A model generated the notes under the pieces. The model was given only the letters and a program-made list of their open reading frames with translations, did not search any database and was not told the origin of the DNA. A stretch of 64,000 bases of DNA from contig NC_087078.1 of assembly GCF_026151205.1 (NCBI RefSeq), positions 18,059,118-18,123,117 of the forward strand, written 5' to 3'. Shown here piece by piece: positions 4,428 to 53,814 of this stretch. The translations under genes and the position numbers were made by a program. Source of the stretch: Bolinopsis microptera (taxonomy: Eukaryota > Ctenophora > Tentaculata > Lobata > Bolinopsidae). Within the stretch, counting starts at the first letter, position 1; the number at the start of each line of letters is the position of its first letter.

Positions 4428-4536
4428 GTAATAATAATTATTTATGATTATATGCGGTGATTATTATAACATCTCTATTATGAATCCTTATCATGTACAG
4501 AATTGAAGTATCAAATATCAATCGTTGATCACATTA

Positions 4537-4718: not shown

Positions 4719-4799
4719 TTAAATCTTACTGAATCCCATTTAAATCTATTCGAAAATTACTCAATCTTAACTGTGCAGGGCTATAAATTAAATTATTTC

Positions 4800-4935
4800 T
4801 TAATTTGTGCACAGCTTTTTCCAGATCCTGCTGGACCGTTTATCCACACGTTAGTTAAGGAAGAATCCAAACTCTTTGAAATGTTTTCTTCACAATAGAA
4901 GAGTATACCGTTTTTGCAGCAAAATTAGCAATGCT
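4800..4935 (-). pseudogene. P-loop (Walker A) exon remnant, type b, U1
   Basis: A second, different frame carries VWINGPAGSGKSCAQIK, preceded by an acidic, Ser-rich stretch (CEENISKSLDSS). It is repeated in U2 at about 15,965-16,090. In U3 (about 27,295-27,345) the bases encoding the P-loop are deleted while the flanks remain. The motif is convincing; the identity of the enzyme is not. Three P-loop exons within 1.6 kb of one unit suggest tandem duplication of an NTPase gene before the whole unit was duplicated. Confidence 0.5.
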
Positions 4936-5064
4936 CTTGCTGTTGTTAAAACTCTTCGTATCTGAGGTATACCTTGGTATACCTAACTACTGGTATTGGT
5001 AACTACGAGAAGTATAAATTTTTGAAAACTTACCAATTTAAAGTAATTGTGTATAAGATTATCG

Positions 5065-5427
5065 GGCAATTCGGTAATGTAGCTTGGTTAAGGCACGGTT
5101 AAAGCACAGTTAAGGCACGGCTAAAGCACAGTTAAGCCACGGTTAAGGCACAAGGGTTACATGAGGCACGGTTGAGGCACGGTCACTTAAGGTACGGTTA
5201 ACGCACGGTTAGGGAAATATAACCTATAAACCTGGAGGGGGATATTTAAAACATATAAGTGATACGAAAGATTGTATTAGCAGGAGCTTTCAAAATACTT
5301 CTGTAAATCGTTTTCAACTAAGGATGATGTTGTGAAGGGTGATTATAACCTATAAACATACAAGTGGTTAACTAAGGCACGGTTAAGGTACGGTTAGCTA
5401 CGTGCATAGATACATTACCGAATTGCC
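5065..5427. mobile_element. 363-bp MITE with 11-bp internal repeats and 8-bp TSD (U1 copy)
   Basis: The ends are GGCAATTCGGTAATGTA and its reverse complement. GATTATCG flanks both sides (5057-5064 and 5428-5435), a perfect 8-bp TSD. The body is largely a degenerate array of GGTTAAGGCAC-like units, some in GGTAC form, at 5090-5215 and 5370-5395. The U2 copy at 16,239-16,464 has the same ends and TSD but only 226 bp, so the internal array has contracted or expanded since unit duplication. Confidence 0.9.
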
Positions 5428-5435
5428 GATTATCG

Positions 5436-5668
5436 TTCAAGCGCTGGCAATTGCGCTAGTTATCGCAAATTTATATTTTGCGCTGACCAGCGTTCAATGG
5501 CGCTAGCCAGCAACAACTAGCGCTAGATGGCGACAACTAGCGCCATCCAGCTCTAGTTGTCGCCAACCAGCGCTAGTTGTCGCCATCCAGCGCTAGTTGT
5601 CGCCATCCAGCGCTAGTTGTCGCCATCCGGCGCTAGTTGTCGCGTTTACACTATCGCAAAAGAACCCT
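5436..5668. repeat. AGCGCTAGTTGTCGC array, truncated relative of the 52-kb fold-back
   Basis: Tandem 15-20 bp units built from AGCGCTAGTTGTCGCCATCC and its reverse complement. The right edge (CGCGTTTACACTATCGCAAAAGAACC) matches the terminus of the large element at 52,087-53,814. No left terminus is visible, so this is a truncated family member. U2 has a shorter version at about 16,473-16,665. Confidence 0.8.
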
Positions 5669-6094
5669 TACTCCTACGTGTAAGTAGTTTGGGTTTCGTT
5701 CTATAATAACTATGTTATCCTCTCTTTCCACGTTTTTATGATAATCCGTGATTATTATTGTCGTGGCTCTATTGAAGGTAAGGTGTTACTTAGTAACAAC
5801 AACGCTGTTATTAGCACTATAAATACAGCAAAACAAACCAGTAACGCTCTGGTGTCAAGATCGTACTACAAATGAATAATTATTGTTTATTATAGTGATT
5901 AAACATGATTAAATAAATTAATTAAATTAATGTAATAATGTAATAATGTGTAACTGGGGTCCCTCTGGAGCTTGTCCTTTAGTGCTCCTAAGTAATTAAT
6001 AATTATTTATGATTATACGCGGTGATTATTAAATCTTTATTATGAATCCTTATGTACGTAATTGAACTATCAATCGTTGATCACATTAATATTT

Positions 6095-6426
6095 GGATTT
6101 CTGTACACTTTTCCCGCCCCTGCTGGTCCGTTCATCCATCTTTTTGATGGAACATTCTTCCTCTATACCGCTGTCAGTACAATAAATCCTTTCCAAAGAA
6201 TAGTTTTCCAGTATAATGATGCTGGGTCTCCTTCGTTTGCTTCCAAGGAAACGAAATAGCTGTCGTTAGTTTTGTGATCGCAATATTTGTTTGAATCCAG
6301 CGATTTACCATCACCTGTATGTATTTTCCACATGAAACATGTAAAAGAGCGTAACATGTATTTCTTTATAGAGCTGCACACGACACGTAAGTTGAAGTTA
6401 TAATATAAATTAACACAAGTAATCAC
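6095..6426 (-). pseudogene. conserved exon followed by P-loop remnant type c, U1
   Basis: The frame 6163-6426 (87 codons) contains CSSIKKYMLRS, MWKIHTGDGKSLDSNKYCDH and SYFVSLEANEGDPASLYWKT. The U2 counterpart differs by a few residues and by one six-base insertion that keeps frame, which favours coding. About 30 bases after its stop the minus strand reads KRWMNGPAGAGK, a third Walker A variant that lost one base relative to type a. The function is unknown. The plus strand is also open here (6062-6259), but the P-loop context favours minus. Confidence 0.45.
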
Positions 6427-6632
6427 GACCTTGATGATCTTCTTTCAAAGCCGAAGAGATCCGGATTCCGAAAGAATAGTTCCACACCATCGGAGGGTGT
6501 TAGCGAAGAAAAGACGGATAGCGAAACTGAAGAAGAGGAAGATAAAAAGATAAGACGTTCTTATCGTTCAAAGAAACCAGTCTTGCAACTAGAGATAAAG
6601 ATGAAGGGAAAGTCTCACGATGAGTAAAATAT
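6410..6632 (+). CDS. charged C-terminal exon candidate, unknown
   Basis: An open plus frame of about 74 codons has no good ATG. It begins near NHDLDDLLSKPKRS, passes through an acidic block (EEKTDSETEEEEDKK) and a basic block (RRSYRSKKP), and ends KGKSHDE before a stop. The acidic-then-basic pattern resembles a nuclear protein tail. The U2 copy (about 17,435-17,615) has an 11-base and a 1-base deletion that destroy the acidic block. It is probably an exon or remnant; I do not recognise the family. Confidence 0.35.
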
Positions 6633-6956
6633 GTACCAGGTATAAATTACACGGGCCACATGGTATAATGGAAAGAGCTCGTGAATTGTACACGGTTTGA
6701 TGTACAATAAGTAATATATAAACCGTGTGTGTAGTGCACAAGGTGTAGATAGCATAATACCCGGCAGTGGAGAGTAGAGCTCCAGAGATCATTAATTAGT
6801 ATAGACAAATCGATTATGAGAAATTGGGATTTCTAGTTTGATTGAAGACTAAGAAACAGAGTTAAGTAAAGTATAAAATTGATAAAAACTTGTGATACAA
6901 TTAGGGGAAACATTTAATATCAAGTAAAGTTCGTGTTCTTAGTCTAGGTGTAGGTA

Positions 6957-7908
6957 TTAACGGAGTTCGTTGACCGTAACGAGCTGTAGATCTTGGAGGA
7001 TCTTTTCGAGTTGACTTAGTCCTCCGAGGACCGAGTCAACGATGGACGGGGGTGCAAACATCGAGCGAGAGAGCAGCACCTGCAAACCGGCCTCCGTCCA
7101 CGACGAGTACACGGGACGGAGTTTCGCCACGAGAACGTGACGGATATTGCCGTGTTTTGACAAGCACCGGGTCCCGGACAAGATTGCACCGCCGCGCTGC
7201 GAGAGGGACAGTATCAGCTCTGCCAGGAACGGGAGCAGCGATTGTAGCACAAGGCGGTGAATCGTTTGTATCTTCGGGTTCGTCTGGAGCTCAGACCGAA
7301 ACAGACGAATCTGGGTCTGAGCCCCTCCGAAGTTAAACCCGGTGAACAGCAAGGACGGACTTGGGGTTGAAATAGCTCCCGGAACGGGACTGAAAGGGTA
7401 CGGATGAGGATCAAGCACTAAGGATATTGTCAGAACAGAAAAGGGTGAACAAGTATACGATGTTAATTGGATCAGTTCACATCTTACCTGACGGCGGAGG
7501 CGGCGGTCGGGGTCGAGCGGCCGCGACCGAATCTTCCTCGGGTTGAAGACGAGGACGGGGGAGAGGGTGAATTAATGGAAGATGAAGACGAAGAGGACGA
7601 GGAGCTGGACAGAGCAGCTGAGGGTAAACGGGGTTCGGGTGCTACGGTGTCAGCATTCGAAGCGGGTGTGGCTCCGGAGCTAGTTTCCTTTGGTTCAGGT
7701 GTGGGAGCTAAATCTCGGACTAGGCCGATCAGTGTTTCGGCGGGAATGTGCCTGAAAATTAAGAGATTACGTTATATACCCTAATACGATCGATAAAGTA
7801 GATTGGGAATAGCTAGTAACAGAAACATGAAAGGACGCAAAAGAGGAAGATCTACAAAGAGGAGGGTACTTACTTGGCGATCAGGGCGAGCAGGTCGGTT
7901 GATGACAT
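6957..7908 (-). CDS. gene X, U1 copy: three-exon gene, unknown function, intact
   Basis: Exon 1 is 7874-7908 (MSSTDLLALIAK), exon 2 is 7498-7751 and exon 3 is 6957-7389. The introns are 122 and 108 bp, with donors GTAAGT and GTAAGA and acceptors TTTTCAG and CTTTCAG. Splice phases match at both junctions, giving a protein of about 240 residues. It has an amphipathic N-terminal helix (LIAKHIPAETLIGLVRDL), a Pro/Ser-rich linker with a nine-Ser run, an RG-type basic patch (TRGRFGRGRS), then a compact helical domain (about 140 residues) containing FNFGGAQTQIRLFR, SQRGGAILSGTRC and KLRPVYSSWTEAGLQVLL. A TATA box lies upstream. The layout suggests a small nucleic-acid-binding or structural protein, but I recognise no family. 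Of four copies in the window only this one is unbroken. Confidence 0.75.
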
Positions 7909-7990
7909 AGCGGAAAGTAAAATGTGGTGTTGGGTTTGAAAAAGTTACTTTGAAAGATAGTTGGAAATAACTAATAGTTAACGGCGGAGG

Positions 7991-7997
7991 TTTTATA
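7991..7997 (-). promoter_or_regulatory. TATA box of gene X (U1)
   Basis: TATAAAA on the minus strand within GGTATAAAACCTCC, about 85 bases upstream of ATG 7908. The same box and flanks are kept at 18,763-18,769 (U2) and at 12,913-12,919 upstream of a gene X 5' fragment. This conservation supports a core promoter. Confidence 0.7.
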
Positions 7998-8248
7998 CCT
8001 GGACTAAACAGGAAGCAATGGCTCGTCGAAACCGCTATGGGTTCCGAAACTAGCAGACTCAACTTCAGGTGAACTACCGATAGTGCCTCCTGATAATCAC
8101 ATTAGACATACCCTCGGTGAGTAGAACACGAATATTTAGTGTCTTCCTGCCGCATAAATATTTATTCATTAAATAATTAGTGCCGGTCAACGGTAAAAAC
8201 ATACTTCTAGGGAAACACTTCCGGAGGAAACAAAGGTCGTACAATTAG

Positions 8249-14265: not shown

Positions 14266-14403
14266 CAATTATATATCCAATTATACATCTCCGATCTCGG
14301 AAATTCTATTTGGTGTCCGTTAAATGATCCGCCATGTAAAGTTCAATATATTTGTGTTTTTGAAGTTAGGGGTGAAAAGAAGGAAAAAGATAAAACTACT
14401 TAC

Positions 14404-15586
14404 GGTCATCGATTTTCCCTTGCTTGTGCTTGGTTTTGGGGCCGGTCGTTTCCTTTTTGTAGGGGTTTCCTCCACACCTTTCTTCAGCTCCCAAACTTTT
14501 AGGGTCATGCAACCATTTTTCTTGACCGCTATACCCACTAATTCCATTCCGTTCTGAAAATCGATATCATTCGATATAAAACATTCATTAATCTCTTCTA
14601 GAGTTGGTATGAATTTAAAATCTTCCAGATGATAATTAACATCAATTGAATAATAATAGAGTTTATCCTCCTAAAACCTACTTTTAATTACTAAAACAAA
14701 TACAAAACCAAGCTTTATAATCAAGTTTTTAAGATTCTTTAATTCTATATGATTTTTTAAAATTTTTGAATGCCTACCTTCATCATATCTTCGTCGTCTA
14801 CCGGGAAGTGAAATATAATTTGAGTCTCATTCCCACCTGTTAACGCAAAATTTTGGATCAGTTTAGATGCACTAGTCATCTTGGTTTTAAGCCTTCTATT
14901 TCCGCCGCAAGCAGTACAGGTTATTGTAAACTTGTTTACTCTGTAATAAATGGCATAAAATTGAATTTTTGTTTAACTGAATTTTTTGTTTAACTGATGT
15001 GTAGAAGGCTGTTCCCCAGTGAATGGTGCTCCCCACACGTCAGAAAGCTGATTACGATTGTCCTTTCATCAGCGGAGGCTAGGCCCGTGGTCTCTTCTAT
15101 GCAATTCTCTGCAAAGCAGTCGTGCACCTTTTTCCTATTCTTGTCCTTTCCTTGTTTCTCCTCTGATTCACTGTCACTGTCGAAATTTTGTTGACAGGGA
15201 AACGTGACGTATAACTATAACTTCAGTTTCATCCCCAACTCCACTCCATAGTTACTGGTATTAGTTTTCTTTGTACATATAAACGGGACCCGACCGGCAA
15301 CAACAACATTGACATCAGTTTGTCCTTCCATTTTAAACGGAAACATCAGTTTTATAACAAAACCTTCAAGATTACTCTTATGAAGTCAAAACCTCCCCCA
15401 ACACAGCTGAAGAGAGATGCACTTTCTTCTTTCCCCCAACACTGCTGACCAGTTCTCACAGTTGACGTAGAGGACGAAGAAGCAGGTCAACAAAACCTTC
15501 TCGGAAGAGTGGGCTACAGGCGTGGGAGATAACTCCCGGGATACAGATCGGTCCTCTCTATTATGATTCCATTTTCTCCTTCCCAC
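14404..15586 (-). pseudogene. gene Y, U2 copy: spliced beta-rich protein, broken
   Basis: Clear exons are 14,404-14,670 (starts EDKLYYYSIDVNYHL, ends with a basic KRKRPAPKPSTSKGK tail, donor GTAAGT) and 14,778-14,940 (a CTAC zinc-type pair, then KMTSASKLIQNFAL and PVDDEDMMK, donor GTAGGC). A block from 15,039 upward carries an acidic-basic stretch (FDSDSELEEKQGKDKNRKK), the hydrophobic FVIKLMFPFKMEGQ and, near 15,560, GRRKWNHNREDRS. Phases agree at both junctions. Breaks are an in-frame TAG shared with U3 (about 15,214) and a TGA where U3 has TGG (about 15,381). The long beta-type exons and basic tail suggest a nucleic-acid or capsid-associated role, but I do not recognise it. Confidence 0.5.
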
Positions 15587-15715
15587 ATACTCTACTTTAA
15601 TAATTCAGAAATAATAATTATGTATATATGCGGTGATTAATGCATCTCTATTATGAATCCTTATGTACAGAATTTAAGTATCAATCGTTGATCACGCTAT
15701 TATTTTATTTTCTGT

Positions 15716-15740
15716 ACACTTTTTCCTGACCCTGCTGGTC
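15716..15740 (-). pseudogene. Walker A remnant type a, U2
   Basis: It encodes DGPAGSGKSVQ in the same context as 4537-4718. Type b recurs at about 15,977-16,004 and type c at about 17,105-17,128. The motif residues are identical between units although neighbouring third positions differ. This suggests the copies were under coding constraint at some stage after duplication. Confidence 0.5.
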
Positions 15741-16238
15741 CGTCCATCCACTTTTGGTGAGAATTACCATGAATTTGTTTGTTATGTACGCTGTTTGTCA
15801 GTGATAATATTTTTTTGGTCTGTATTGCTGGATTAATATGATTCTGACTAGTAAATTGAATAGGTACTGAACTTTATTATATTAAATCTTACTGAATCCC
15901 ATTTAAATCTATTCGAAAATTACTCAATCTTAACTGTGCAGGGCTATAAATTAAATTATTTCTTAATTTGTGCACAGCTTTTTCCAGATCCTGCTGGACC
16001 GTTTATCCACACGTTAGTTAAGGAAGAATCCAAACTCTTTGAAATGTTTTCTTCACAATAGAAGAGTATACCGTTTATGCAACAAAATTAGCAATGCTCT
16101 TGCTGTTGTTAAAACTCTTCGTATCTGAGGTATACCTTGGTATACCTAAGTTAGGTCCTAACTACTGGTATTGGTAACTACGAGAAGTATAAATTTTTGA
16201 AAACTTACCAATTTAAGTAATTGTGTATAAGATTATCG

Positions 16239-16464
16239 GGCAATTCGGTAATGTAGCTTGGTTAAGGCACGGTTAAAGCACGGTTAAGGCACAAGGGTCA
16301 CATGAGGCACGGTTGAGGCACGGTTGAGGCACGGTCACTTAAGGTACGGTTAACGCACGGTTGGGGAAATATAACCTATAAACATACAAGTGGTTAACTA
16401 AGGTACGGTTAAGGCACGGTTAAGGTACGGTTAGCTACGTGCGTAGATACATTACCGAATTGCC
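16239..16464. mobile_element. 226-bp MITE, U2 copy of 5065-5427
   Basis: The GGCAATTCGG termini and GATTATCG TSD (16,231-16,238 and 16,465-16,472) are identical to the U1 copy. The internal GGTTAAGGCAC array is about 137 bp shorter. Confidence 0.9.
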
Positions 16465-17159
16465 GATTATCGTTCAAGCGCTGGCTTGCGCTAGTTATCG
16501 CAAATTCATATTTTGCGCTGACCAGCGTTCAATGGCGCTAGCCAGCGACAACTAGCGCTAGATGGCGACAACTAGCGCCATCCAGCGCTAGTTGTCGCCA
16601 ACCAGCGCTAGTTGTCGCCATCCAGCGCCATAGTTTATGCGTTTACACTATCGCAAAAGAACCCTTACTCCTACGTGTAAGTAGTTTGGGTTTCGTTTTA
16701 CAATAACTATGTTATCCTCTCTTTCCACGTTTTTATGATTATCCGTGATTATTATTGTCGTGGCTCTATTGAAGGTAAGGTGTTACTTAGTAACAACAAC
16801 GCTGTTATTAGCACTATAAATACAGCAAAACAAACCAGTAACGCTCTGGTGTCAAGATCGTACTACAAATGAATAATTATTGTTTATTATAGTGATTAAA
16901 CATGATTAAATAAATTGATTAAATTAATATAATAATGTAATAATATGTAACTGGGGTCCCTCTGGAGCTTGTCCTTTAGTGCTCCTAAATAATTAATAAT
17001 TATTTATGATTATACGCGGTAATTATTAAATCTTTATTATGAATCCTTATGTACGTAATTGAACTATCAATCGTTGATCACATTAATATTTGGATTTCTG
17101 TACACTTTTCCCGCCCCTGCTGGTCCGTTCATCCATCTTTTTGATGGAACATTCTTCTT

Positions 17160-17429
17160 CTATACCGCTGTCAGTACAATAAATCCTTTCCAAAGAATAG
17201 TTTTCCAGTATAATGATGCTGGGTCTCCTTCGTTTGCTTCCAAGGAAACGAAATAGCTGTCGTTAGTTTTGTAGATGTGATCGCAATATTTGTTTGAATC
17301 CAGCGATTTACCATCACCTGTATGTATTTTCCACATGAAACATGTACAAGAGCGTAACATGTATTTCTTTATAGAGCTGCACACGCCACATAAGTTGAAG
17401 TTATAATATAAATTAACAAAAGTAATCAC
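17160..17429 (-). pseudogene. conserved exon upstream of P-loop type c, U2
   Basis: The 89-codon counterpart of 6163-6426, with two extra residues (CDHIYKTNDSYF) from a six-base in-frame insertion. The remainder is nearly identical (HTGDGKSLDSNKYCDH, SLEANEGDPASLYWKT). It ends at the same stop before the P-loop remnant. Confidence 0.45.
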
Positions 17430-17913
17430 GACCTTGATGATCTTCTTTCAAAGCCGAAGAGGTCCGGATTCCGAAAGAATAGTTCCACACCATCGGAGGG
17501 TGTTAGCGAAGAAAAAAACTGAAGAAGAGGAAGATAAAAAGATAAGACGTTCTATCGTTCAAAGAAACCAGTCTTGCAACTAGAGATAAAGATGAAGGGA
17601 AAGTCTCACGATGAGTAAAAGATGTACCAGGTATAAATTACACGGGCCACATGGTATAAAGGAGAGAGCTCGTGAATTGTACACGGTTTGATGTACAATA
17701 AGTAAACCGGGTGTGTAGTGCACAAGGCAGTGGAGAGTAGAGGTCTAGTGACCAGTAATTAGTTAGACAATCAATTATGAGAAATTGGGATTTCTAGTTT
17801 GATTGAAGACTAAGAAACAGAGTTAAGTAAAGTATAAAATTGATAAAAACTTGTGATACAAATAGGGGAAACATTTAATATCAAGTAAAGTTCGTGTTCT
17901 TGTCTAGGTGTAG

Positions 17914-18680
17914 GTATTAACGGAGTTCGTTGACCGTAACGAGCTGTAGATCTTGGAGGATCTTTTCGAGTTGACGTAGTACTCCGAGGACCGAGTCAAC
18001 GATGGACGGGGGTGCAAACATCGAGCGAGAGAGCAGCACCTGCAAACCGGCCTCCGTCCACGACGAGTACACGGGACGTAGTTTCGCCACGAGAACGTGA
18101 CGAATGTTGCCGTGTTTTGACAAGCACCGGGTCCCGGACAAGATTGCACCGCCGCGCTGCGAGAGGGACAGTATCAGCTCTGCCAGGAACGGGAGCAGCG
18201 ATTGTAGCACAAGGCGGTGAATCGTCTGTATCTTCGGGTTCGTCTGGAGCTCATCTTACCTGACGGCGGAGGCGGCGGTCGGGGTCGAGCGGCCGCGACC
18301 GAATCTACCTCGGGTTGAAGACGAGGACGGGGGAGAGGGTGAATTGATCGAAGATGAAGACGAAGAGGACGAGGAGCTGGACAGAGCAGCTGAGGGTAAA
18401 CGGGGTTCGGGTGCTACGGTGTCAGCATTTGAAGCGGGTGTGGCTCCGGAGCTAGTTTCCTTTGGTTCAGGTGTGGGAGCTAAATCTCGGACTAGGCCGA
18501 TCAGTGTTTCGGCGGGAATGTGCCTGAAAATTAAGAGATTACGTTATATACCCTAATACGATCGGTAAAGTAGATTGGGAATAGCTAGTAACAGAAACAT
18601 GAAAGGATGCAAAAGAGGAAGATCTACAAAGAGGATAGTACTTACTTGGCGACCAGGGCGAGAAGGTCGGATGATGACAT
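17914..18680 (-). pseudogene. gene X, U2 copy, exon 3 truncated by deletion
   Basis: Exon 1 (18,646-18,680, MSSSDLLALVAK) and exon 2 (18,260-18,523) are well preserved, with their splice signals. A deletion of about 200 bp joins the exon 2 donor region directly to the middle of exon 3, at a CTCA microhomology. It removes the intron's 3' end, the acceptor and about 40 codons (the FNFGGAQ segment). The rest of exon 3 (17,917-18,210) remains open and near-identical to U1. The TATA box is at 18,763-18,769. The copy cannot make the normal protein. Confidence 0.75.
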
Positions 18681-18762
18681 AGCGGAAAGTAAAATGTGGT
18701 GTTGGGTTTGAAAAAGTTACTTTGAAAGATAGTTGGAAATAACTAATAGTTAACGGTGGAGG

Positions 18763-18769
18763 TTTTATA
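18763..18769 (-). promoter_or_regulatory. TATA box of gene X (U2)
   Basis: TATAAAA, in the same context and distance (about 85 bases) from ATG 18,680 as in U1. Confidence 0.6.
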
Positions 18770-19973
18770 CCTGGACTAAGCAGGAAGCCATTGCTTCCTC
18801 GAAACCGCTATGGGTTCCGAAACTAGCAGACTCAACTTCAGGTGAACTACCGATAGTGCCTCCTGATAATCACATTAAAAATACCCTCTGTGAGCAATGC
18901 ACGAATATTCAGCAGATAGACAAGAGCGTAACATGTAACTCAGTCAGACTTATAATATCATTCTGACTAGCAAATTGAATAATGCACTTTGTGATATTTC
19001 AACCTCTTTAAAAATTAGCAATTCATCTTAAAACTGTGCAAGGTTATAGATTAAATTATTTCTTAGTGCACAGCTTTTTAAATTTAAAACCCAATTTCTT
19101 TGTAAAGTATTGTTTGCATTTTAACAGTAACGGGTCTTATATTGTTGTAATTGTAAGCCACAATCTTAATTGTAAGAAAAATATCGGAAATATGAAATTA
19201 TTATGCAGATTAAAGAAAAGTGACGATTAAAAAATGATAAAACGACTTGACAAAACGAAATGTTTGAAAGAAAAAGAATGAAAGGAATGAAAAGAAGTGA
19301 ATTATTTAAACGTGATAAAAATAGGATATTACGAAGATTAGATATTATATTATGTAAACGCTAGCTTAGCTCTACCTACTTAACCTAGACGCTTACGGCT
19401 TCAAGCCTTCTGCTTTGACTAGAAGCCAAAACTACAAGGACTGTGTAATCAATTTAGGTTTGAATCAGGCTTGGAAGTGGGACAAATGAAACAAACGAAT
19501 AACTAGGGATCTAAAGGCGATTAGGAAATAATTGGACAATACCGATAATGTAAAATCAACCTCAATAGGATAATCCTTCTCAACGTATTCTACTTAAAGC
19601 TTACTTTGTAAACACATTCTAGTGAGTAAACCTTAACATAGAATATAACTCGGCTTGCGGCGCATCATAACTTACAAGACATTTAAGTACGGAAACGTAT
19701 GAGGTTATAAGCGAGGCAAAAGGCGTGGTGTGTAAGGTCTGGGTCGGTTGACCCCCAAACTGGGTAAACGAAAACTCCCGGACCTCTTCGGTCTCGATAT
19801 TTATAGCCTTTCTCTCGTAATCTCATTAAACGTCATACTTTCGTCGTTTCCATAAGTTAAACCCCCCTATAAGCCATTATACACCTTTAAAAGCTTTTAT
19901 TCACTTTTAAAGACTTTTAAAGACACTTAAAAACGGTTTCTGTAATTGTTGAGCAATTATGAACAATCAAAGA

Positions 19974-25290: not shown

Positions 25291-25720
25291 TTGACTTTGT
25301 CGTTGTCATGAGTACAGAGTAGTACTGCAGTAGTATATTGAACCAGCGTTTGATCAAAAATTGGGGGAAATAAAAATGTTATTAACACTAGCACGATATA
25401 TCACAAAACCACTTACATTATTGAAATTAAAATATTTTTAATTACACTCAGCTCTGTGGTCGTAGTGGGATTTAATTGTTTCACCTGATATACCTTGGTA
25501 ACTTTAAGGCCGTGTTCTAGATGCGAACACAGGAGATAAGAGGAGTTATCAAGATATTTTTAGTACTAAACAATTATACATCCAATTATACATCCAATTA
25601 TACATCTCCGATCTCGGAAATTCTATTTGGTGTCCGTTAAATGATCCGCCATGTAAAGTTCAATATATTTGTGTTTTTGAAGTTAGGGGTGAAAAGAAGG
25701 AAAAAGATAAAACTACTTAC

Positions 25721-26903
25721 GGTCATCGATTTTCCCTTGCTTGTGCTTGGTTTGGGGCCGGTCTTTTCCTTTTTGTAGGGGTTACCTCCACACCTTTCTT
25801 CAGCTCCCAAACTTTTAGGGTCATGTAACCATTTTTCTTGACCGCTATACCCTCTAATTCCATTCTGTTCTGAAAATCGATATCATTCGATATAAAACAT
25901 TCATCAATCTCTTCTAGAGTTGATATGAATTTAGAATCTTTCAGATGATAATTAACATCAATTGAATAATAATAGAGTTTATCCTCCTAAAACTTTCTTT
26001 TAATCACTAAAACAAATACAAAACCAAGCTTTATAATCAAGTTTTTAAGATTCTTTAAATTTATATGATTTTTTAAAATTTTTGAATGCCTACCTTAATC
26101 ATATCTTCGTCGTCTACCGGGAAGTGAAATATAATTTGAGTCTCACTCCCACCTGTTAACGCAAAATTTTGGATCAGTTTAGATGCACTAGTCATCTTGG
26201 TTTTAAGCCTTCTATTTCCGCCGCAAGCAGGTTATTGTAAACTTGTTTACTGTAATAAATGGCATAAAATTGAATTTTTGTTTAACTGAATTTTTTGTTT
26301 AACTGATGTGTAGAAGGCTGTTCCCCAGTGAATGGTGCTCCCCGCCCGCACGTCAGAAAGCTGATTACGATTGTCCTTTCATCAGCGGAGGCTAGGCCCG
26401 TGGTCTCTTCTATGCAATTCTCTGCAAAGCAGTCGTGCACCTTTTTCCTATTCTTGTCCTTTCCTTGTTTCTCCTCTAATTCACTGTCACTGTCGAAATT
26501 TTGTTGACAGGGAAACGTGACGTATAACTATAACTTCAGTTTCATCCCCAACTCCACTCAATGCAAATTGTTCCATAGTTACTGGTATTAGTTTTCTTTG
26601 TACATATAAACGGGACTCGACCGGCAACAACAACATTTGTCCTTCCATTTTAAACTGAAACATCAGTTTTATAACAAAACCTTCAAGATTACGCTTATGA
26701 AGCCAAAACCTCCCCCAACACAGCTGAAGAGAGATGCACTTTCTTCTTTCCCCCAACACTGCTGACCAGTTCTCACAGTTGACGTAGAGGACGAAGAAGC
26801 AGGTCAACAAAACCTTCTCGGAAGAGTGGGCTACAGGCGTGGGAGATAACTCCCGGGATACAGATCGGTCCTCTCTATTATGATTCCATTTTTTCCTTCC
26901 CAC
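25721..26903 (-). pseudogene. gene Y, U3 copy, multiply frameshifted
   Basis: It parallels 14,404-15,586. The exon at 25,721-25,986 has a one-base deletion in a T run. The CxxC exon has a 5-base deletion (about 26,228), and the upstream block a 10-base deletion (about 26,637). The in-frame TAG shared with U2 is present. On the other hand, the codon that is TGA in U2 is TGG here, so 26,487-26,903 stays open for 138 codons from MGRKKWNHNREDRS. The two copies decayed independently after duplication. Confidence 0.55.
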
Positions 26904-27919
26904 ATACTCTACTTTAATAATTCAGAAATAATAATTATGTATATATGCGGTGATTAATGCATCTCTATTATGAATCCTTATGTACAGAATTGAAGTATCA
27001 ATCGTTGATCACGTTATTATTTTATTTTCTGTACACTTTTTCCTGACCCTGCTGGTCCGTCCATCCACTTTTGGTGAGAATTACCATGAATTTGTTTGTT
27101 ATGTACGCTGTTTGTCAGTGATAATATTTTTTTGGTCTGTATTGCTGGATTATTATGATTCTGACTAGTAAATTGGATAGGTACTGAACTTTATTATATT
27201 AAATTGTACTGAATCCTATTTAAATCTATTCGAAAATTAGCAACTCATCCTAAATGTGCCGGATTATAAATTAAATTATTTCTTAATTTGTGCACAGCTT
27301 TTTCCAGACGTTGGTTAATGAAGAATGCAAACTCTTTGAAAGGTTTTTTACAGAATAGAAGAGTATAACGTTTTTGTAGCAAAATAAGCAATGCTCTTGC
27401 TGTTGTTAAAACTATTCGTATCTGAGGTATACCTTGAAGGTATATTGGTAACTACATTTTTTAAACTTACCAATTAACATTGTGTTGGGCTGGTAACCTC
27501 ATATACGATGTAGCATTATAATGGGTCCTGGGAGTAATCTCCGATAACACACTAGCTCTTGCTGTTGTTAATTTACTTGCGCACTCTGAAGGTACCAGTC
27601 ACTTAATAGTTAATATGAAAAATATCATAAACAAAACAACTTAGTCACCAATTAAGATTGTCTGTGGAAAGAAATAATGAATTATGAAATTATAATGCAA
27701 ATAAAAGAAAAGTGATGACAGTAAATAAACCCATCAATAAAAGATACAATTACGTTCATACTTTTACTATGATTTGTAGTTTGATTAAAGACTAAGAAAC
27801 AGAGTTAGTTAAAGTTAAAAATTTATTAAATCTTGTAATAAAAAGAAGAAAAAAACAATTGTGTTATAAACAATAATCAGGTGATTCGAGTTCTGTGGTA
27901 TCTCGGGTTATGGGATCAC

Positions 27920-41375: not shown

Positions 41376-44352
41376 GGCACTATCCGTCGCGGAGTCGAGT
41401 CCGCGGCGGAGCCGCCGGACTTCGAGCGGACTCCGAACGGACTCCGGCGGAGCCGCCGGACTCCGAGCGGACTCCGGCGGTGCTCCGCCAAAATGTATTT
41501 ACAGTGGACTCGAGTACATTTTGGCGGACTCCGAGCGGAGCCGAGCGGACTCCGAGCGGACTTTAAAGTCCGCCGCGGACTCCGAGCGGCTCCGCGGCGG
41601 CTCGGCGGAGTGTCCGCCACGGACTAAGCCACTAGGCGGACTCCGGTCCGCCGCGGACTCCGGCGGAGTGCTTGGCGGACTCCGCCGGACCTCTCCGCCA
41701 GACTTGAATCCGGCGGAGTCCGGCGGAGCTTGGCGGAGTCCGCCAGCTCGGCGGACTCCGCTCGGAGTCCGCCGGACTCCAACAGAGTCCACTGACTTCC
41801 GACCTCCGTCTTCCGACCCTCGGCTAAATTTGTCACGTGACATACAACATAGCATTTTGCAATATTGTGGTCAGATGAAAAGGTCGCTAGTGATAAACCT
41901 TAACCATTACCCTCACAATGTCAATAGTGTACAACTCTAGTCCTAACTTTGACCCTATAATGTATAAACGTTGACCCTAACCCTCCACCAAACCGTCCGC
42001 AGCGAAATATCAATGTCATTGACTGGTCACGTGACCAAAACAATTTTTGTCATATTATCTCATATGGGGAAGCGTTTTTAGTTTTACCCTACACGTTGCA
42101 TGTGGCGTCATTCGGCCGGATCCCAGCAAGCAAAAATACGTCGACCATCACAGGACGACGCCAGCCAGCACTCTCTACGCTCTTCGATCGAAACATAAGT
42201 GTTTACGTAAGTTGACCAAATTTCAACAAAATTGTTATATGGGAAGTATAATAACTTTTCGATTGTTTCCAAAGTAATGTGCTGGCCGAAATAAGAGCTA
42301 AAAACCATTCAATGGTCAGCGCGCGCGTCTTATTGTCGATGGCGCACTGCCTACTTCGAGCTCCGATCGTCCTGTGACGAAGTAAGGACGAAGCCTGAGG
42401 TCCTCAGGTAACATCGACCACCGATTGAAAATTCAAAGATTTTTTGACATAAAGGTCAAATGTAAAACTTAAATCTTGATGCTGATTGATTGACGACGTC
42501 AATTTTTGAGCACAGCGCGAGCGCATGCGGAAAAGGACCGCGTAGCTAGTCAAGATGTTGATAAATATTTGGCTTGTGGCGCGATGTGTTGCTCTAACTA
42601 TAGCCCTCTCGCTTGCAGTAGCGCGCGACCGCCGGAAATGACTTGTGGAACAAGCGCGCCCGCAGCGGCGCGAAAGCACCTGGTTAGCTAAATGAACGCG
42701 ATGTGCCTTGCATTGTAGGATGAAATCCTACTAGCTGACGCCACTCGCAGCTGTGATGTTCGCTGTACGTCAGCGATCGAAATTTATACGCGTATCACCC
42801 GTTAAGATGTGCCACCCGACGCGCCACGCAATTTTTCTCGTTGCTCGTCGCACGTCGACGCCCTCATTAAATTTTTGGAGAAAATCGCTCGCCAAAATTT
42901 GTTGGACCTTGACCATTGTTAATGATCTGGCCCGGGGCGCGCTACTTCGTAGCACTTGCCATCGGGCAGAAAGCGGCGCGCGCTACTTCGAAGAAATTTA
43001 GACGAGTAACATCCGTCAAGTTGGACCAGGACGATGTCCTAGCCTGGCAGCTCATTGCGCGGCGCGTCGCAACGAGCTTCGTTGTTCGTCGACGTGCGAC
43101 GAGCAACGAAAAAAATTGTGTGGCGCGTCGAGTGGCACATCTTAACGGGGGATACGCGTATAAATTTCGATCGCTGACGTACAGCGAGCAGCACAGCTGC
43201 GAATGGCGTCAGCTAGTAGGATTTCATCCTACAAGGCACATCGCGTTTACCTAGCTAACCAGGTCATTTCCGCCTCCGGCGGTCGCGCGCTACTGCAAGC
43301 GAAAGGGCTATAGTTAGAGCAACACATCGCGCCACAAGCCAAATATTTATCAACATCTTGACTAGCTACGCGGTCCTTTTCCGCATGCGCTCGCGCTGTG
43401 CTCAAAAATTGACGTCGTCAATCAATCAGCATCAAGATTTAAGTTTTACATTTGACCTTTATGTCAAAAAATCTTTGAATTTTCAATCGGTGGTCGATGT
43501 TACCTGAGGACCTCAGGCTTCGTCCTTACTTCGTCACAGGACGATCGGAGCTCGAAGAGCGTAGAGAGTGCTGGCTGGCGTCGTCCTGTGATGGTCGACG
43601 TATTTTTGCTTGCTGGGATCCGGCCGAATGACGCCACATGCAACGTGTAGGGTAAAACTAAAAACGCTTCCCCATATGAGATAATATGACAAAAATTGTT
43701 TTGGTCACGTGACCAGTCAATGACATTGATATTTCGCTGCGGACGGTTTGGTGGAGGGTTAGGGTCAACGTTTATACATTATAGGGTCAAAGTTAGGACT
43801 AGAGTTGTACACTATTGACATTGTGAGGGTAATGGTTAAGGTTTATCACTAGCGACCTTTTCATCTGACCACAATATTGCAAAATGCTATGTTGTATGTC
43901 ACGTGACAAATTTAGCCGAGGGTCGGAAGACGGAGGTCGGAAGTCAGTGGACTCTGTTGGAGTCCGGCGGACTCCGAGCGGAGTCCGCCGAGCTGGCGGA
44001 CTCCGCCAAGCTCCGCCGGACTCCGCCGGATTCAAGTCTGGCGGAGAGGTCCGGCGGAGTCCGCCAAGCACTCCGCCGGAGTCCGCGGCGGACCGGAGTC
44101 CGCCTAGTGGCTTAGTCCGCGGCGGACACTCCGCCGAGCCGCCGCGGAGCCGCTCGGAGTCCGCGGCGGACTTTAAAGTCCGCTCGGAGTCCGCTCGGCT
44201 CCGCTCGGAGTCCGCCAAAATGTACTCGAGTCCACTGTAAATACATTTTGGCGGAGCACCGCCGGAGTCCGGCGGCTCCGCCGGAGTCCGCTCGGAGTCC
44301 GCCCGGAGTCCGGCGGCTCCGCCGCGGACTCGACTCCGCGACGGATAGTGCC
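41376..44352. mobile_element. 2977-bp fold-back transposon with TCCGCC arrays and 8-bp TSD
   Basis: It begins GGCACTATCCGTCGCGGAGT and ends with the reverse complement. TATTCGCT flanks both sides (41,368-41,375 and 44,353-44,360). The arms (about 41,376-42,863 and about 43,095-44,352) are near-perfect inverted copies around a 230-base loop. The outer 450 bases of each arm are dense CGGAGTCCGCC-like repeats in a GC-rich island. The inner part is unique sequence. Opposite-strand frames in the arms (for example 41,521-41,940 and 43,799-44,218) are identical mirror translations of the simple repeat, not genes. No transposase is present. Confidence 0.93.
42188..42353. mobile_element. 166-bp insertion in only one arm of the fold-back
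   Basis: The left arm has this segment where the right arm is continuous. CTTCGA flanks it on both sides (42,182-42,187 and 42,354-42,359), a likely 6-bp TSD. Its last about 80 bases (GCTGGCCGAAATAAGAGC...GCGCACTGCC) are homologous, in inverse orientation, to 12,950-13,025. It is therefore a separate small mobile element. Confidence 0.75.
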
Positions 44353-44360
44353 TATTCGCT

Positions 44361-45092
44361 AATGTGTGTCCAAAAATGGATTTTTTTTAATGAAGTAGGG
44401 GCAAGTAAAAAGAAAATGGTAGGACGTCTCCGGTTCTATAAAACAACGTGGGCATAGTGTTGAGATGTTTCGGTCTATTTTAGACTTGATAATGATATTA
44501 GCAGGTGACATCTAGATTAACTACAAATCACTGGCACAATGGAGTTAATTCCCGGTTGCCAGGCACGTACAAATTGTACACTGTGGTCTAGGTTACAAGG
44601 GCCTACATTAACGTCTTTATTATTGCTCTTTTGATCAGTTCGAGGGTGTGACAAAATCGTGCAAGAAATATAAACGTCTCTATTGCCCTGCTTCAGCAGC
44701 ATCTTATTCTTCCGTTGGTGGGTTAAGGATCTCGATGTTTTCTAGCTGAAATTATAGCTAGAGGAGAATTATTTATTTCAAATTATTTTAATTCATTCCA
44801 TTTAATAGAAATGATATAAGCATTTAAATATTATTCAATGAATAGTGTTAATGAGTATATTGAACATGAATATACCATAAACATATATTGCATTCTGGGA
44901 ATCCATAAAGTTGAAAGATTTAAAAGTAAATCTTTTTATTTTTGAGTTAAAATATTTAAAGGTAAATCATTTTATTTTTGGGTCGGAGAGAAGCTGTGAG
45001 TTGGAATCTTTGTCGATAAAGGTGAAGGTTGAGTCTTCAATACAACTGTGCACAAGTAAATATATATATTATATATACATATATACATATAT
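44361..45092. other. 0.7 kb spacer without a gene
   Basis: It holds the 44,688-44,830 repeat (relative of 38,960-39,110), two near-identical AAGTAAATCTTTTTATTTTTG-like segments and a (TA)n run up to 45,092. No gene is supported. Confidence 0.5.
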
Positions 45093-48000
45093 GGACACGT
45101 TCATTGAAGTTTGAGGATATTGGTAAATATTAGTGACCTTACTGAATGGCACGATGATGTAAAATGTGTCACACTATGAAACTATATAAACCCTCTAACC
45201 CTAAGATAATCGTTTCATCCTCTAGATAAACTTTGTCGCATAACGATATCTTTATCAGACGATAAGATATCGCTTAAATGCGGCCGGCAGTGAGTTGTAA
45301 ACTTTGTCACACTATAAAAACGTGACGGAGTTTATATGGACCCCTTGTTGCCGTGTTTGACCAAATTTTCGAATTTCCAATTCATAGAATAGCTGTATAT
45401 GACTATTATCTACATATTTAGCGACTTTTTTCCTTAAATGGTAGCACCATGTAAACTCCGTCACCCATTTAAGAAATTTATATGAGGGATGTTTATGACA
45501 TCCTGACAAGAAATGCCGAATAGTCTAGCATTATTTTGTGAGCTGAATGTGTTTGGAATTGTTCACATATTTCATTGTTATAGGCAAATACAAATACAGA
45601 AGGCAGAAATAGGTAAATTTAGTCACATAAATTTGTATGATATCTCAACATGTGTGAAATTGAGTAAATATTAGTATACCAACTTAAACACCCTATATTA
45701 CGTACTATGAATCAATTAACAATATTTCAACCATACGCCGGTCATATAAATTATTATATGGCAGTGATATGTTAACATTGGATAAATTTCAACACCTGAA
45801 CAGGGTAAAAATTTGTAAATTTCGTCACAAAAAAAATATTACAACTTTATTTGATCCGTGTTGGCAAAATAACTAATTTATCGACATAGTGATGGTGATA
45901 AAGTGACATTATATACTAATTGAGGTATGATTCTTCAAAATAGGGGCAAGAAATGTAAATTTCGTCACATCAGCCATTGCATTAGTTAGATAGATTTTCT
46001 TTCATATCAACTGCCCTTATTATAGTTGGAATGGATTTATACAGGAAATATAGAAACCCATGCACATTTTTCATCACATTGAAATTATACTGTTGGGGCA
46101 GGAAAAGTAAATTTCGTCACATTTCGGTAAATTAGTGATATTAAACTCAGCATTGTTCAACTCGAGTTCTGATTTGCTGAAAAATAACCTACCAATAATT
46201 CCTGGAAGAATATTGAATTCTAATCGGGGTATGGTTCTTCAAAATAGGGTCAAGAAATGTAAATTTCGTCACATACGTCATTGTAAAATTTAGATACATT
46301 TTCTTTCACATCAACAGTCCTAATTATAGTTTGAAATGAATAATTCAGAGATGAAGGAATATAGAAACCCATGCCCATTTTTCATCACATTGAAATTATA
46401 CTTTTGGGGCAGAAAAAGTGAATTTCGTCACATTTCGGTAACTTAGTATAATTAAACTCAGAATTGTCAAACTTGAGTTCTGATGATCTGCTGAATAATA
46501 ACCTACTAATAATTCATGGAAGAATATTGAATTCTAATCGGGGTATGGTTCTTCAAAATAGGGTCAAGAAATGTAAATTTTGTCACATACGTCATTAATG
46601 TAAAATTTAGATACACTTTCTTTCACATCAACAGTCCTAATTATAGTTTGAAATGATTAATTCAGAGATAAGGAAATATAGAAACCCATGCCCATTTTTC
46701 ATCACATTGAAATTATACTGTTGGGGCAGGAAAAGTAAATTTCGTCACATCTCGGTAACTTAGTAAAATTAAACTCAGAATTGTTAAACTTGAGTTCTGA
46801 TTTGCTGAATAATAACCTACTAATAATTCCTGGAAGAATATTGAATTCTAATCGAGGCATGTTTCTTCAAAATAGGGTCAAGAAATGTAAATTTCGTCAC
46901 ATCAGCCATTGCATTAGTTAGATAGATTTTTTTTTTCATATCAACTGCCCTTATTATTATTGTGACAATTTTTACATCAACTGCCCTTAACTTGAATCAG
47001 CTCTATCCGTGCATCGTCTTATATACAGTTTTCCCGCCTTCCAAACCAAAATCAGATATAAATGATTTCGGCAATTCACCCAGAATTTTAAATTCCATAT
47101 AATGTGACAGAATTTACATCATTTCCCAATAAGTGCATGTATTTGCTAACTTTTCAAAACAACATATTTTAGGGCTATGATTGGTAGAAGAACCATCAAA
47201 TAATGAGTTGAAAGGGTTTTTGAGGACACCTCACAGTAGAAAAGAGGTATCGTATTCAGAGTGTGACAAAGTTTACGAAATATTGCCTTAAAACCGTTCG
47301 ATCCCCTGCCCTTTAGCCAAATGTTGTATCATAATTGTAAATTGTTAGAAAGACCTAATCTACTATATTTTAAACCAAAAATGCTAATTGGGCAGCTATG
47401 GTTAACACAGTCACAAAAATGTGACATTTTTTACATTATAGTGCCTAAAAAACAATAAATTGTATTTCTGAGCCGTGTATATGGAAGTATGGGTCACGTG
47501 GCTAATGTCCAGAACTTCTGAACACGCTATATTTTTTGGTTTTACCAATATCCTTAAACTTCAACATGAACGTGTCCATTTACGATTTCGTATCATTTTG
47601 TGACGATGTTTACATCAACTGCCCTATACTTCAATCAACTGTATCCGTTGTATCGTCCTCATATATAGAGTTTTCTCGCTTCCAAACCAAAATCAGTATA
47701 AATGATTTCGGAAATTCACCCCAGAATTTCAAATTTCCATAATGTGACAGAATTTACATCATTTCCCAATAGCCAAGTGCATGTATTTGTTAACTTTTCA
47801 AAACAACATATTTTATGGCTATGATTGGCAGAAGAACTATCAAATAATGAGTTGAAAGGGTTTGAGGACACCTCACAGTAGAAAAGAGGTCTCGTATTCT
47901 GAGTGTGACAAAGTTTACGAAATGTTGCCTTAAAGCCGTTCGATCACTGCCCTTAGGCTACATTGTATTCATAATTGTTAGATTGACTAATCTACTATAT

Positions 48001-48246
48001 TTTAGACCAAAAATGTAATTGGGCAGCTATGGTAAACAATGTCACAAAAATGTGACATTCTTTACATAATAGTGCCTAAAAGCAAACATTTTATTTTTGA
48101 GCAGTGCATATGGGAGTATGGGTAACGTGGCTAATGTTCAGAACTTATGAACACGCTAGATTAATATATGTTAAAAATTAAACCACTATCGTCAAAAACG
48201 CTGTTTTAGAAATTTACCAATTTCTCAAACTTCAATGAACGTGTCC
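45093..48246. mobile_element. 3154-bp element with a 155-bp-periodic GTAAATTTCGTCACA array
   Basis: A 23-bp perfect terminal inverted repeat (GGACACGTTCATTGAAG...) bounds it. The flanks ACATATAT and ATATATAT would be an 8-bp TSD with one mismatch. Inside, the 16-bp motif GTAAATTTCGTCACAT occurs about ten times on the plus strand from 45,297 to 46,902. Then eight reverse-complement copies (TGTGACAAAGTTTAC type) run from 46,961 to 48,065. Steps are mostly 140-165 bases. The left half is built of about 305-bp tandem units (near 45,925, 46,230, 46,545 and 46,855). The right half is two units of about 640 bp (46,960-47,590 and 47,600-48,246). No coding frame is present. Confidence 0.9.
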
Positions 48247-48483
48247 ATATATATAATAAATAGTTGTTGCTTGGTTTCCCAAAGAGAGTGATCGACTGCA
48301 GTTAAGCAGGAACATTATAATTCGAACAATTGAATATACAATATACATGTATATTATTATATATATACTTGGATAAATACTATAAAACAAATATAATTTA
48401 AAATAGAATGCAATACCTGCAGGTATATCGGCAGGTATGGCGTCTAGTTTCTTTGTTGTGTTACTATGACAGTAGAAAATAAT

Positions 48484-51801: not shown

Positions 51802-52086
51802 ACTTTTTATTGGATATCGTTTTCCGTTAATAATCAATATGTACACATATCTCAATATCATTACTACTTACACTTCAACTCAATATCAGTATTAAATTCC
51901 CTACGAGAATATAACGATAACACTACTTTCAAAACTTTTTGTCTTGATACGGTTCAACCTTTTCTAATCTATCTATGACCGACAGCTGTTCGAAATTGTG
52001 GCTCCAATTTATCAGTGGTTCTGCCTTAATGGTTAGGCTTTCCGGCTCGTGTACTATCTTTATGTTCTTGTCAATGAACAGATTTC

Positions 52087-53814
52087 GGTTCTTTTGCGAT
52101 AGTCAAAACGCGACAACTAGCGCTGGATGGCGACAACTAGCGCTATCCAGCGCTAGTTGTCGCCATCCAGCGCTAGTTGTCGCTATCCAGCGCTGGATAA
52201 CGCTGGCCAGCGCAAAATATATATGTTCGATAATTGTCGCTATCCAGCGCTAGTTGTCGCCATCCAGCGCTAGTTGTCGCCATCCAGCGCTAGTTGTCGC
52301 CATCCAGCGCTAGTTGTCGCTGGCTATGCGACACTGTCGCACGCGATAGTTTGCGATGGCCAGCGCAAACTGGCCATCGCAGAAAACAGTTCGATAACTA
52401 GCGCTGGATAGCGACAACTAGCGCTGGATAGCGACAACTAGCGCTGGCCAGCGCTGGCCAGCGCTAAGCGATAGCCAGCGCTGGCCAGCGCTGGCCATCG
52501 ATATCCAGCGCAAATTTTTGCGCTATTACTCGTCAGTAGCGCTGGCCCAGCGCTGGCCAGCGCTAGACAGCGCTAGTTGTCGCTATCCAGCGCTAGTTGT
52601 CGCTATCCAGCGCTAGCCAGCGCTAGTTGTCGCTATCCAGCGCAAGTTGTCGCTATCCAGCGCTAGCCAGCGTTAGCCAGCGGTAGCCAGCGCTAGCCAG
52701 CGCAATATAATATGTATCAAAATCATATACTTGCGATATTACTTGGATGATGATTAATCACTTTACACTCGACTGTCACGTGACTTTTTTTAACCCATTC
52801 TCTGACTCTGATCTAGCTGGTTCTGAACGACTTTTCGAAACCCTACCCTCTAATCTGATCCCAACCCTAACCCTAACCCAATTCTTAACAAAAACATAAG
52901 CTGAAACCCTAACAATAACGAGAAATTAGACTAACTTCCTTATACGGTCATATCACGTGATCGATACATGTACAGTTTTTCGCCAATATCTCGTCAGGAG
53001 AGCATTTTAACCCTATGTCATGGGCCCATGGGGGTTGATTCGGAATTAGCGTCCGAAAATACATCGATGAAGTTGGTTACAACTTACAACCATCGGGGGC
53101 CCTTTTAGAACAATCTCGAAGATCGACTGTAGAGTGATTTAGCACCGCACGATATTAGTATTATTGTCAGCCAGCACAATTCAATATAGTTGCGATATTA
53201 CTCGTCAGCTAGCGCTGGCCAGCGCTGGCTAGCGCTGGCTAGCGCTGGCTAGCGCTGGTTAGCGCTGGTTAGCGCTGGCTAGCGCTGGTTAGCGCTGGGT
53301 TTGCGACAACTAGCGCTGGTTAGCGCTGGTTAGCGCTGGTTAGCGCTGGATAGCGACAACTAGCGCTGGCCCAGCGCTAGTGACGAGTAATAGCGCAAAA
53401 ATTTTGCGCTGGATATCGATTGCCAGCGCTGGCCAGCGCAGGCTATCGCTTAGCGCTGGCCCAGCGCTGGCCAGCGCTAGTTGTCGCTATCCAGCGCTAG
53501 TTGTCGCTATCCAGCGCTAGTTATCGAACTGTTTTCTGCGATGGCCAGTTGCGCTGGCCATCGCAAACTATCGCGTGCGACAGGTGTCGCATAGCCAGCG
53601 ACAACTAGGCGCTGGATGGCGACAAACTAGCGCTGGATGGCGACAACTAGCGCTGGATAGCGACAATTATCGAACATATATATTTTGCGCTGGCCAGCGT
53701 TTATCCAGGCGCTGGATAGCGACAACTAGCGCTGGATGGCGACAACTAGCGCTGGATAGCGCTAGTTGTCGCCATCCAGCGCTAGTTGTCGCGTTTTGAC
53801 TATCGCAAAGAACC
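52087..53814. mobile_element. 1728-bp fold-back transposon built of AGCGCTAGTTGTCGC units
   Basis: It begins GGTTCTTTTGCGATAGTC and ends with the reverse complement (GACTATCGCAAAGAACC). CAGATTTC flanks both ends (52,079-52,086 and 53,815-53,822). Arms 52,087-52,705 and 53,170-53,814 are arrays of 15-16 bp units alternating AGCGCTGG(AT/CC) and GCGACAACT or their complements. The 460-base centre is unique, AT-rich and contains a short TAACCC run (about 52,860-52,880). No coding frame is present. Truncated relatives sit at 5436-5668 and 16,473-16,665. Confidence 0.95.

Follow-up and report, generated by a model that had tools for sequence, protein, structure and literature searches.

What is a short motif doing when it recurs across some three kilobases of a ctenophore genome and turns round at the middle? 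We addressed this question for a 64,000-nucleotide stretch of Bolinopsis microptera DNA (C7:18059118-18123117, hereafter the window), in which the motif fills an element of 3154 bp at 45093-48246; our genome scans took in 264.65 Mb on 232 contigs. The analysis showed that the arms of this element are arrays of one conserved site and that the element is a non-autonomous DNA transposon. Probably it is of the cut-and-paste type, with arms made up mainly of spaced 26-bp sites, most of them oriented to the nearer end, that are bound by a cognate protein. The window element belongs to what we call family A; the sites of a sister family, B, differ from it in a coordinated fashion at a single base.

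A first-pass annotation of the window had listed 19 copies of a 16-bp motif, and all of them are real. A search with GTAAATTTCGTCACAT at three or fewer mismatches gave 17 matches in the window against 1.16 expected, a number reached by 0 of 100 shuffles, and 15 of the 17 lie inside the element. At five or fewer mismatches all 19 were recovered, the right-arm copies differing by 2-4 mismatches. The starts given for the right arm were one base high for the 16-mer but are exact for a 15-bp core, GTAAAN4GTCACA. Two further left-arm sites have cores at 45159 and 45226, and the total in the element is more than 20. The motif proved to be part of a longer site of 26 bp, GG-N9-GTAAA-N4-GTCACA. Sites were collected with the core pattern, allowing up to one mismatch per half, from 18 family A elements. 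The 422 sites obtained could be grouped by their flanks into 21 classes. Of the 15 classes that have three or more members, 11 have G at -11 and 12 have G at -10, neither position having been used for picking sites. Between classes the flanks are essentially unrelated: 207 of 210 comparisons gave no similarity above z 5, and the other three came from one overlapping pair (two) and a palindromic neighbour (one). Classes 2877< and 2912< overlap; 2877< is probably no true site and was omitted from later class comparisons. The form GGCAN7GTAAAN4GTCACA occurs seven times in the window, always inside the element, against 0.00 expected.

The element starts with GGACACGTTCATTGAAG and ends in its reverse complement, so that its termini read GG...CC, i.e. 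RR...YY. Its terminal inverted repeats (TIRs), GGACACG..., are short (45084-45115 against 48224-48255; 32 nt, 97% complementary). A very long inverted repeat had been suggested for this locus, but the two arms can be aligned with each other only at the TIR (32-45 nt), at a degenerate inner copy of it and at the sites. On the left, the array repeats in tandem as a dimer (period 314, 3.3 copies, 87% matches); in the right arm, the right end occurs twice, in copies that are 87% identical. The reversal of orientation at the centre is present but not absolute, because each arm has outward-facing partners beside inward sites (on the right, 47401-47415 and 48032-48046). The conserved TIR is about 36 bp long, and the core of the first site follows shortly inside it, at 67-81 bp counted from the left end. 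The longest stop-to-stop open reading frame (ORF) is 78 amino acids (aa). The features are as follows, single sites, the outward partner of site 205 and the centre having been placed by the motif scan.

45089..45092, no strand: left target-site duplication, ATAT (from the 4-bp direct duplication in 18 of 20 elements)
45093..45128, plus: left TIR, GGACACGTTCATTGAAGTTTGAGGATATTGGTAAAT (inverted-repeat comparison; 974 genome matches to its first 24 bases)
45148..45173, plus: site 67, the first site, GGCAN7GTAAAN4GTCACA
45226..45240, plus: site 134, degenerate core
45286..45311, plus: site 205
45321..45335, minus: outward-facing partner of site 205 (inverted pair)
45451..45465, plus: site 359
45602..45627, plus: site 521
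45815..45829, plus: site 723
45916..46957, plus: left array, cores at 45955, 46107, 46259, 46418, 46573, 46735 and 46887 (tandem repeat and motif scan)
46903..46960, no strand: centre, where site orientation flips
46952..47533, minus: right end, inner copy, with inward sites at 46961, 47103, 47262 and 47420 (minus) and an outward partner at 47401 (plus)
47541..47582, minus: internal degenerate TIR copy (sequence comparison)
47591..48162, minus: right end, outer copy, with inward sites at 47599, 47743, 47904 and 48051 (minus) and an outward partner at 48032 (plus)
48212..48246, minus: right TIR (sequence comparison)
48247..48250, no strand: right target-site duplication, ATAT (flank comparison)

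The sites had been described as recurring about every 155 bp, near one nucleosome repeat. The spacing is not constant, and the nucleosome idea is not supported, since spacings of 67-71, 111 and 143-162 bp coexist. At the start of the left arm, the first intervals between sites are 67 and 71 bp. In the left arrays (intervals of 120-190 bp, 12 elements) the spacing is 152 bp in 42 of 86 intervals, with 160, 155 and 159 bp also seen, and in right arms (88 intervals under 250 bp) it is 162, 151, 111, 143 or 158 bp. Some right arms are built of 111-bp units that retain the same site (L015, L026, L027). Array length is variable among copies, and one of them, LC5, has 31 motif matches between 1243 and 5950.

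The element is dispersed through the genome. Exact 16-mers number 653, strict tripartite sites (GGCAN7GTAAAN4GTCACA) 1006 and TIR ends (first 24 bases, two or fewer mismatches, families A and B together) 974; controls with reversed patterns gave 0 in each case. From the listed C1 and C2 clusters of 16-mers we chose twenty stretches of 8-9 kb. Rightward-facing sites are followed by leftward-facing ones in 19 of them, with few strays in the opposite direction, and the remaining stretch, L010, has only rightward sites within its 8 kb. Both TIRs lie inside 15 stretches, the other five (L010, L017, L019, L023, L024) being dropped for one unrecognised end; these 15, the window copy, LC8 and LC5 are the 18 family A elements. 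We also compared the orientation of neighbouring TIRs, using the first 100 exact family A matches listed (C1 to part of C4). Of pairs no more than 15 kb apart, 36 point towards each other, at a median distance of 3142.5 bp, 2 point outward and 0 have the same orientation. The proposal of a site array within a TIR-bounded mobile element is thus borne out, as TIRs and flip recur in other copies. All 40 left ends scored (of 1176 candidates) are 98-100% identical and all 40 right ends scored (of 916) 96-100%; family A is therefore young.

Both flanks were compared in 20 elements (18 of family A, 2 of family B); 18 of them have a 4-bp target duplication, and L011 and L028 have no clean one. The duplication is ATAT in 12 of the 18 and TTAA in one; ATAA, ATAC, AAAT, GTAT and TTAT also occur. 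With T at -5 in all 20 elements and A at +5 in 18, the preferred target is T-ATAT-A. A viral origin was considered and rejected: the TIR pattern had 0 matches in viral contigs, a set that may omit records of the window's own genome. Motif-targeted insertion of long interspersed nuclear elements was considered and rejected, their junctions falling at varied places. One family A copy (L053/L054, C8:8214900-8225700) is split by a nested insert of 7.5 kb, which has inverted arms of 1543 bp (97%) and contains a reverse-transcriptase ORF.

Family B was first noticed as a left end at L017:7547, 75% like that of the window, with GTTTA or GTTTG where family A has GTAAA. It is 73-80% identical to family A, and its TIR differs at 2 of 24 bases. 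The family B TIR, GGACACGTTCATTTGAGTTTGAGG, has 529 exact matches in the genome (control 0), the GTTTA form of the tripartite motif 199 (control 0) and all GTNNA forms together 1498 (control 6). A complete family B element, L060 (2158 bp), aligns end to end with family A; its best match among 10 A elements is L027 (79.3%), four of whose array sites it does not have. Between these two, substitutions affect 345 of 1677 spacer positions (20.6%) but only 1 of 108 GTCACA positions, so that between the families GTCACA is far more constrained than the spacers. Within family A the comparison of motif and spacers also favours the motif, but it is biased and was not relied on, because sites were picked by motif and the probes site67 and R182 each caught the other's class. 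Inter-motif sequence as conserved as the motif, and copies without TIRs and flip, had both been named as findings that would speak against the first-pass interpretation; both were checked, and it survived.

One base of the site has changed in nearly every copy. At position +2 of GTAAA, 17 of 18 sites differ between L060 and L027 (Fisher 4e-11). When 14 distinct site classes of the window were paired with L060, anchored on GTCACA and ungapped, the third base of GTAAA went from A to T in 14 of 14, on both arms. Elsewhere among 95 offsets the most parallel equal changes were 7, at the adjacent base, and then 4; the spacer A/T transversion rate is 0.073. Counted by site, with one match each in L060, L059 and the window set aside as no real site, T stands at +2 in 18 of 18 sites of L060, 7 of 8 of L059 and 5 of 6 of L017b. 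Since the flanks of the sites are unrelated, copying between sites is an unlikely cause, and selection by a shared binding protein is thus the simplest reading. The main effect of exchanging A.T for T.A is to shift the thymine methyl group within the major groove, and so it is probably a contact there that has changed. We tentatively suggest, as a little short of an even chance, that with the same base changed at no fewer than 14 unrelated sites and the ends almost kept, A and B have become separate recognition systems, and that site number grew to give multi-kilobase loading arrays. At C1:12307988-12315280, a family B left TIR occurs three times in one orientation at intervals of 2.39 kb, and one right-facing TIR comes next, a head-to-tail multimer.

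What could such arrays do? From the sequences we infer the protein, its loading and synapsis as follows. The sites of each family would bind a cognate protein, most likely the family's own transposase through its DNA-binding domain, whose specificity would have diverged; an accessory protein from an autonomous partner could serve as well. We favour a transposase or partner protein because the first site core lies just inside the TIR, as in Galileo, and because the site type differs by family. GGGCA in several sites is reminiscent of the THAP1 consensus. Multiple sites would load protein onto each arm and so improve end recognition and synapsis, their orientation would tell the complex in which direction the end lies, and cutting would take place at the conserved outer TIR. 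Array growth by unequal exchange would yield the variation in copy number. Having diverged in site specificity while sharing ends, families A and B should be recognised separately.

Several observations weigh against this account. The family B sample is small, consisting of two complete elements, L060 and L059 (1075 bp), and the partial L017b. Positions 0 and +1 of GTAAA have changed at 3 and 5 of 18 sites between L060 and L027, so GT is not clearly constrained, and 2 of 24 window sites do not have A at +2 (22 do). For L017b against the window, informative positions are no less substituted than spacers (15/84 vs. 94/493, p 0.88), in part because the change is concerted. The closer relative L010, which keeps GTAAA, shows only a trend against the window (1/78 vs. 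20/316, p 0.09; 5/88 vs. 83/747, p 0.14). The full site is absent from the TIR, right TIRs having only a partial motif string, GTAAATTTC (by eye). A search for an autonomous copy had been proposed; we found no transposase in the long TIR-bounded copies inspected or the ORFs scanned, and 17 of the 20 elements read have no ORF over 101 aa. THAP domains match 43 times genome-wide; relative to TIR listings that cover part of the genome, the 4 matches on C1 are at least 89 kb away from any exact family B TIR listed, and for the 11 on C1, C3 and the listed part of C4 the nearest exact family A TIR listed is at least 191 kb away.

Longer ORFs were found in several copies and stretches. In the three remaining elements they measure 565 (L013), 550 (LC8) and 250 aa (L018), all in inserts. 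Those of L013 and LC8 are reverse transcriptases by profile match. The L018 ORF (1641-2393) lies in a 1.1-kb insert of a family A copy and has no Pfam match; part of its peptide recurs just outside the element at 5433-5714, which marks it as dispersed sequence. ORFs matching the reverse-transcriptase family occur in L013, L023, L019 and L054, L024 has a long ORF with only a sub-threshold zf-RVT match, and L057 aligns with the reverse-transcriptase region of L013 (87% over 2194 bp). LC8 also has a nested inverted-repeat element, and LC5 owes its length to array growth and inserts. In L058 only short ORFs were seen, and none matched a family above cut-off. At C1:16946869, C1:24398622 and C9:11280744 lie three THAP-domain ORFs, each of 796 aa and all scoring equally, which may be recent copies of a THAP transposase. 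About 430 bp past a diverged family A left arm, in a stretch without a right end, begins an ORF of 521 aa that has at least 11 C2H2 zinc fingers (L010:4713-6278). Another, at L017:1632-2552, is intronless and resembles G protein-coupled receptors (306 aa); the six sequences most closely related to it (77-83% identity) are on ENA-derived contigs, some over 100 kb.

Three other explanations deserve attention. The sites could be bound by host DNA-binding proteins of an architectural, silencing or regulatory C2H2 zinc-finger type, the transposon spreading or exploiting them. A split site of 26 bp would suit a multi-finger protein, and the available text on Mnemiopsis reports that the C2H2 proteins CTEP1/2 bind loop anchors and that over 90% of loop promoter regions have a DNA-transposon insertion (PMC12221973). 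The CTEP motif, however, is GC-rich as described there (PMC12221973), whereas the site here is AT-rich. Moreover, one genome holds two site versions, each nearly fixed per family in the copies read, which a single host protein would not drive, and escape from a host repressor would be expected to scramble sites rather than place the same base everywhere. We regard host binding as unlikely.

Iteron-like sites, which would serve not in end synapsis but to replicate or segregate the element in an extrachromosomal form (circles, peel-and-paste), are the least probable of the three. Dense directional arrays with inverted site pairs do resemble iterons, and the three tandem family B left ends at C1:12307988-12315280 could derive from multimers. 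Nevertheless, TIRs and a 4-bp duplication point to integration by a transposase, orientation follows the ends, and a replication protein was not seen among the ORFs scanned. Scarcely more probable are ordinary satellite-like tandem repeats in a TIR element, with motif conservation as incidental homogenisation. They would suit the true tandem repeat of the left array, the widely varying array length and the segmental duplication of the right arm, and Tetris shows that arrays within transposons can turn into satellites (PMC4079207). This explanation is already contradicted by sites outside the arrays with unrelated flanks, by 111-bp and roughly 152-bp units that keep the same site, by the contrast of GTCACA with the spacers between families and by the parallel single-base change on both arms.

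The window holds other repeats. Only 0.7 kb away is a second foldback-like element with inverted arms at 41376-42187 and 44352-43552 (812 bp, 98%), which contain GC-rich CGGACTCCGAG-type arrays and have the same ORF on both strands. The inverted arms 52076-52697 and 53825-53208 (639 bp, 89%) are 10/20-bp arrays of AGCGCTAGCC type, with related arrays at 5500-5643 and 16535-16628. Repeats of kilobase length in the same orientation, about 11 kb apart and 90-96% identical (4430-8139 and 15610-18912; 14266-16139 and 25583-27436), point either to tandem duplication of a segment or to a large repeat unit.

Internal repeats are a long-known feature of foldback-like transposons, yet the reason for them has been tested in few cases. 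In the present families the sequence itself reveals the sites, how they are laid out and two natural versions of them, which makes the role of the array and the joint change of a protein and dozens of its sites directly testable. If A and B have indeed become separate recognition systems, they would be a natural record of a switch in DNA-binding specificity and of transposon 'speciation'. They also add a large, young transposon pair to the ctenophore genome. In one ctenophore, promoters in chromatin loops are reported to have many DNA-transposon insertions (PMC12221973). In literature on ctenophore miniature inverted-repeat transposable elements (MITEs), foldback or subterminal repeats and internal tandem repeats, the element was not met in titles and abstract openings, subscription papers being mostly outside that scope.

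Several known groups invite comparison with the element. In En/Spm and other transposons, short motifs bound by protein recur near both ends as direct and inverted copies, but such subterminal repeats stay within a few hundred bp, whereas here sites fill the element and an arm can reach several kb (LC5). Sola transposons make a 4-bp duplication, and the length found here would fit, though no transposase was seen. Helentrons with satellite arrays have neither TIRs nor a target duplication; both are present here. Tc1/mariner and piggyBac are described, in the text available, as duplicating TA or TTAA only; the duplications here include ATAT, ATAA, ATAC, AAAT, GTAT and TTAT. Kolobok and the Xenopus T2-MITEs (Xmix/Xstir) are alike in RR...YY termini, a 4-bp duplication, THAP-bearing transposases and a MITE with an amplified internal segment, and one XKol TIR, AGGACATGTCAACC, is similar to GGACACGTTCATTG here (accessible parts of PMC9587614, PMC6004289). 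Kolobok transposases carry THAP domains (PMC6004289, in part); no Kolobok-like transposase was found for the present element. Kolobok is also described as TTAA-specific, whereas TTAA is 1 of 18 duplications here, and the KolobokP lineage, with 3-5 bp duplications, has long terminal direct repeats (PMC9587614, in part) of a kind not seen here.

The first-pass annotation knew of no named family with such a design, which is too strong in view of Tetris (PMC4079207) and Galileo (PMC3688188), both consulted from partial text. Tetris, with tandem repeats of about 220 bp in its TIRs, and Foldback are likewise non-autonomous, with variable-number internal tandem repeats and a possible role as satellite source; they differ in duplications of 8-10 bp, long TIRs and binding sites that the available text suggests but does not show (PMC4079207). 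Of the Foldback-like traits, variable tandem repeats in the arms are present here and long TIRs that are copies of each other are not. Galileo, of the Drosophila P superfamily, is the closest worked-out case. Its THAP domain footprints lie at +63 to +80, outside the roughly 40 bp conserved between families, with further sites in internal repeats (available sections of PMC3688188); its sites are about 70 bp from the end, and the first core here is at 67-81 bp. Galileo's arms are long TIRs, whereas those here are unrelated except for TIR and sites. In Galileo-G three sites per TIR have been mapped, against more than 20 in this element, and duplications in the P superfamily are of 7-8 bp, against 4. 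Binding by Galileo-G THAP was significant for the D. ananassae TIR but slight for one D. mojavensis TIR (PMC3688188, in part), so that families are only partly separated in Galileo. No single-base change affecting every site between families, as seen here, was met in the accessible Galileo text (PMC3688188). Taken together, these comparisons make the element a variant of Galileo/Foldback-like logic and not a new kind. What is unusual is that its arms match in sites rather than in sequence, the number of those sites, and the coordinated single-base difference between sister families.
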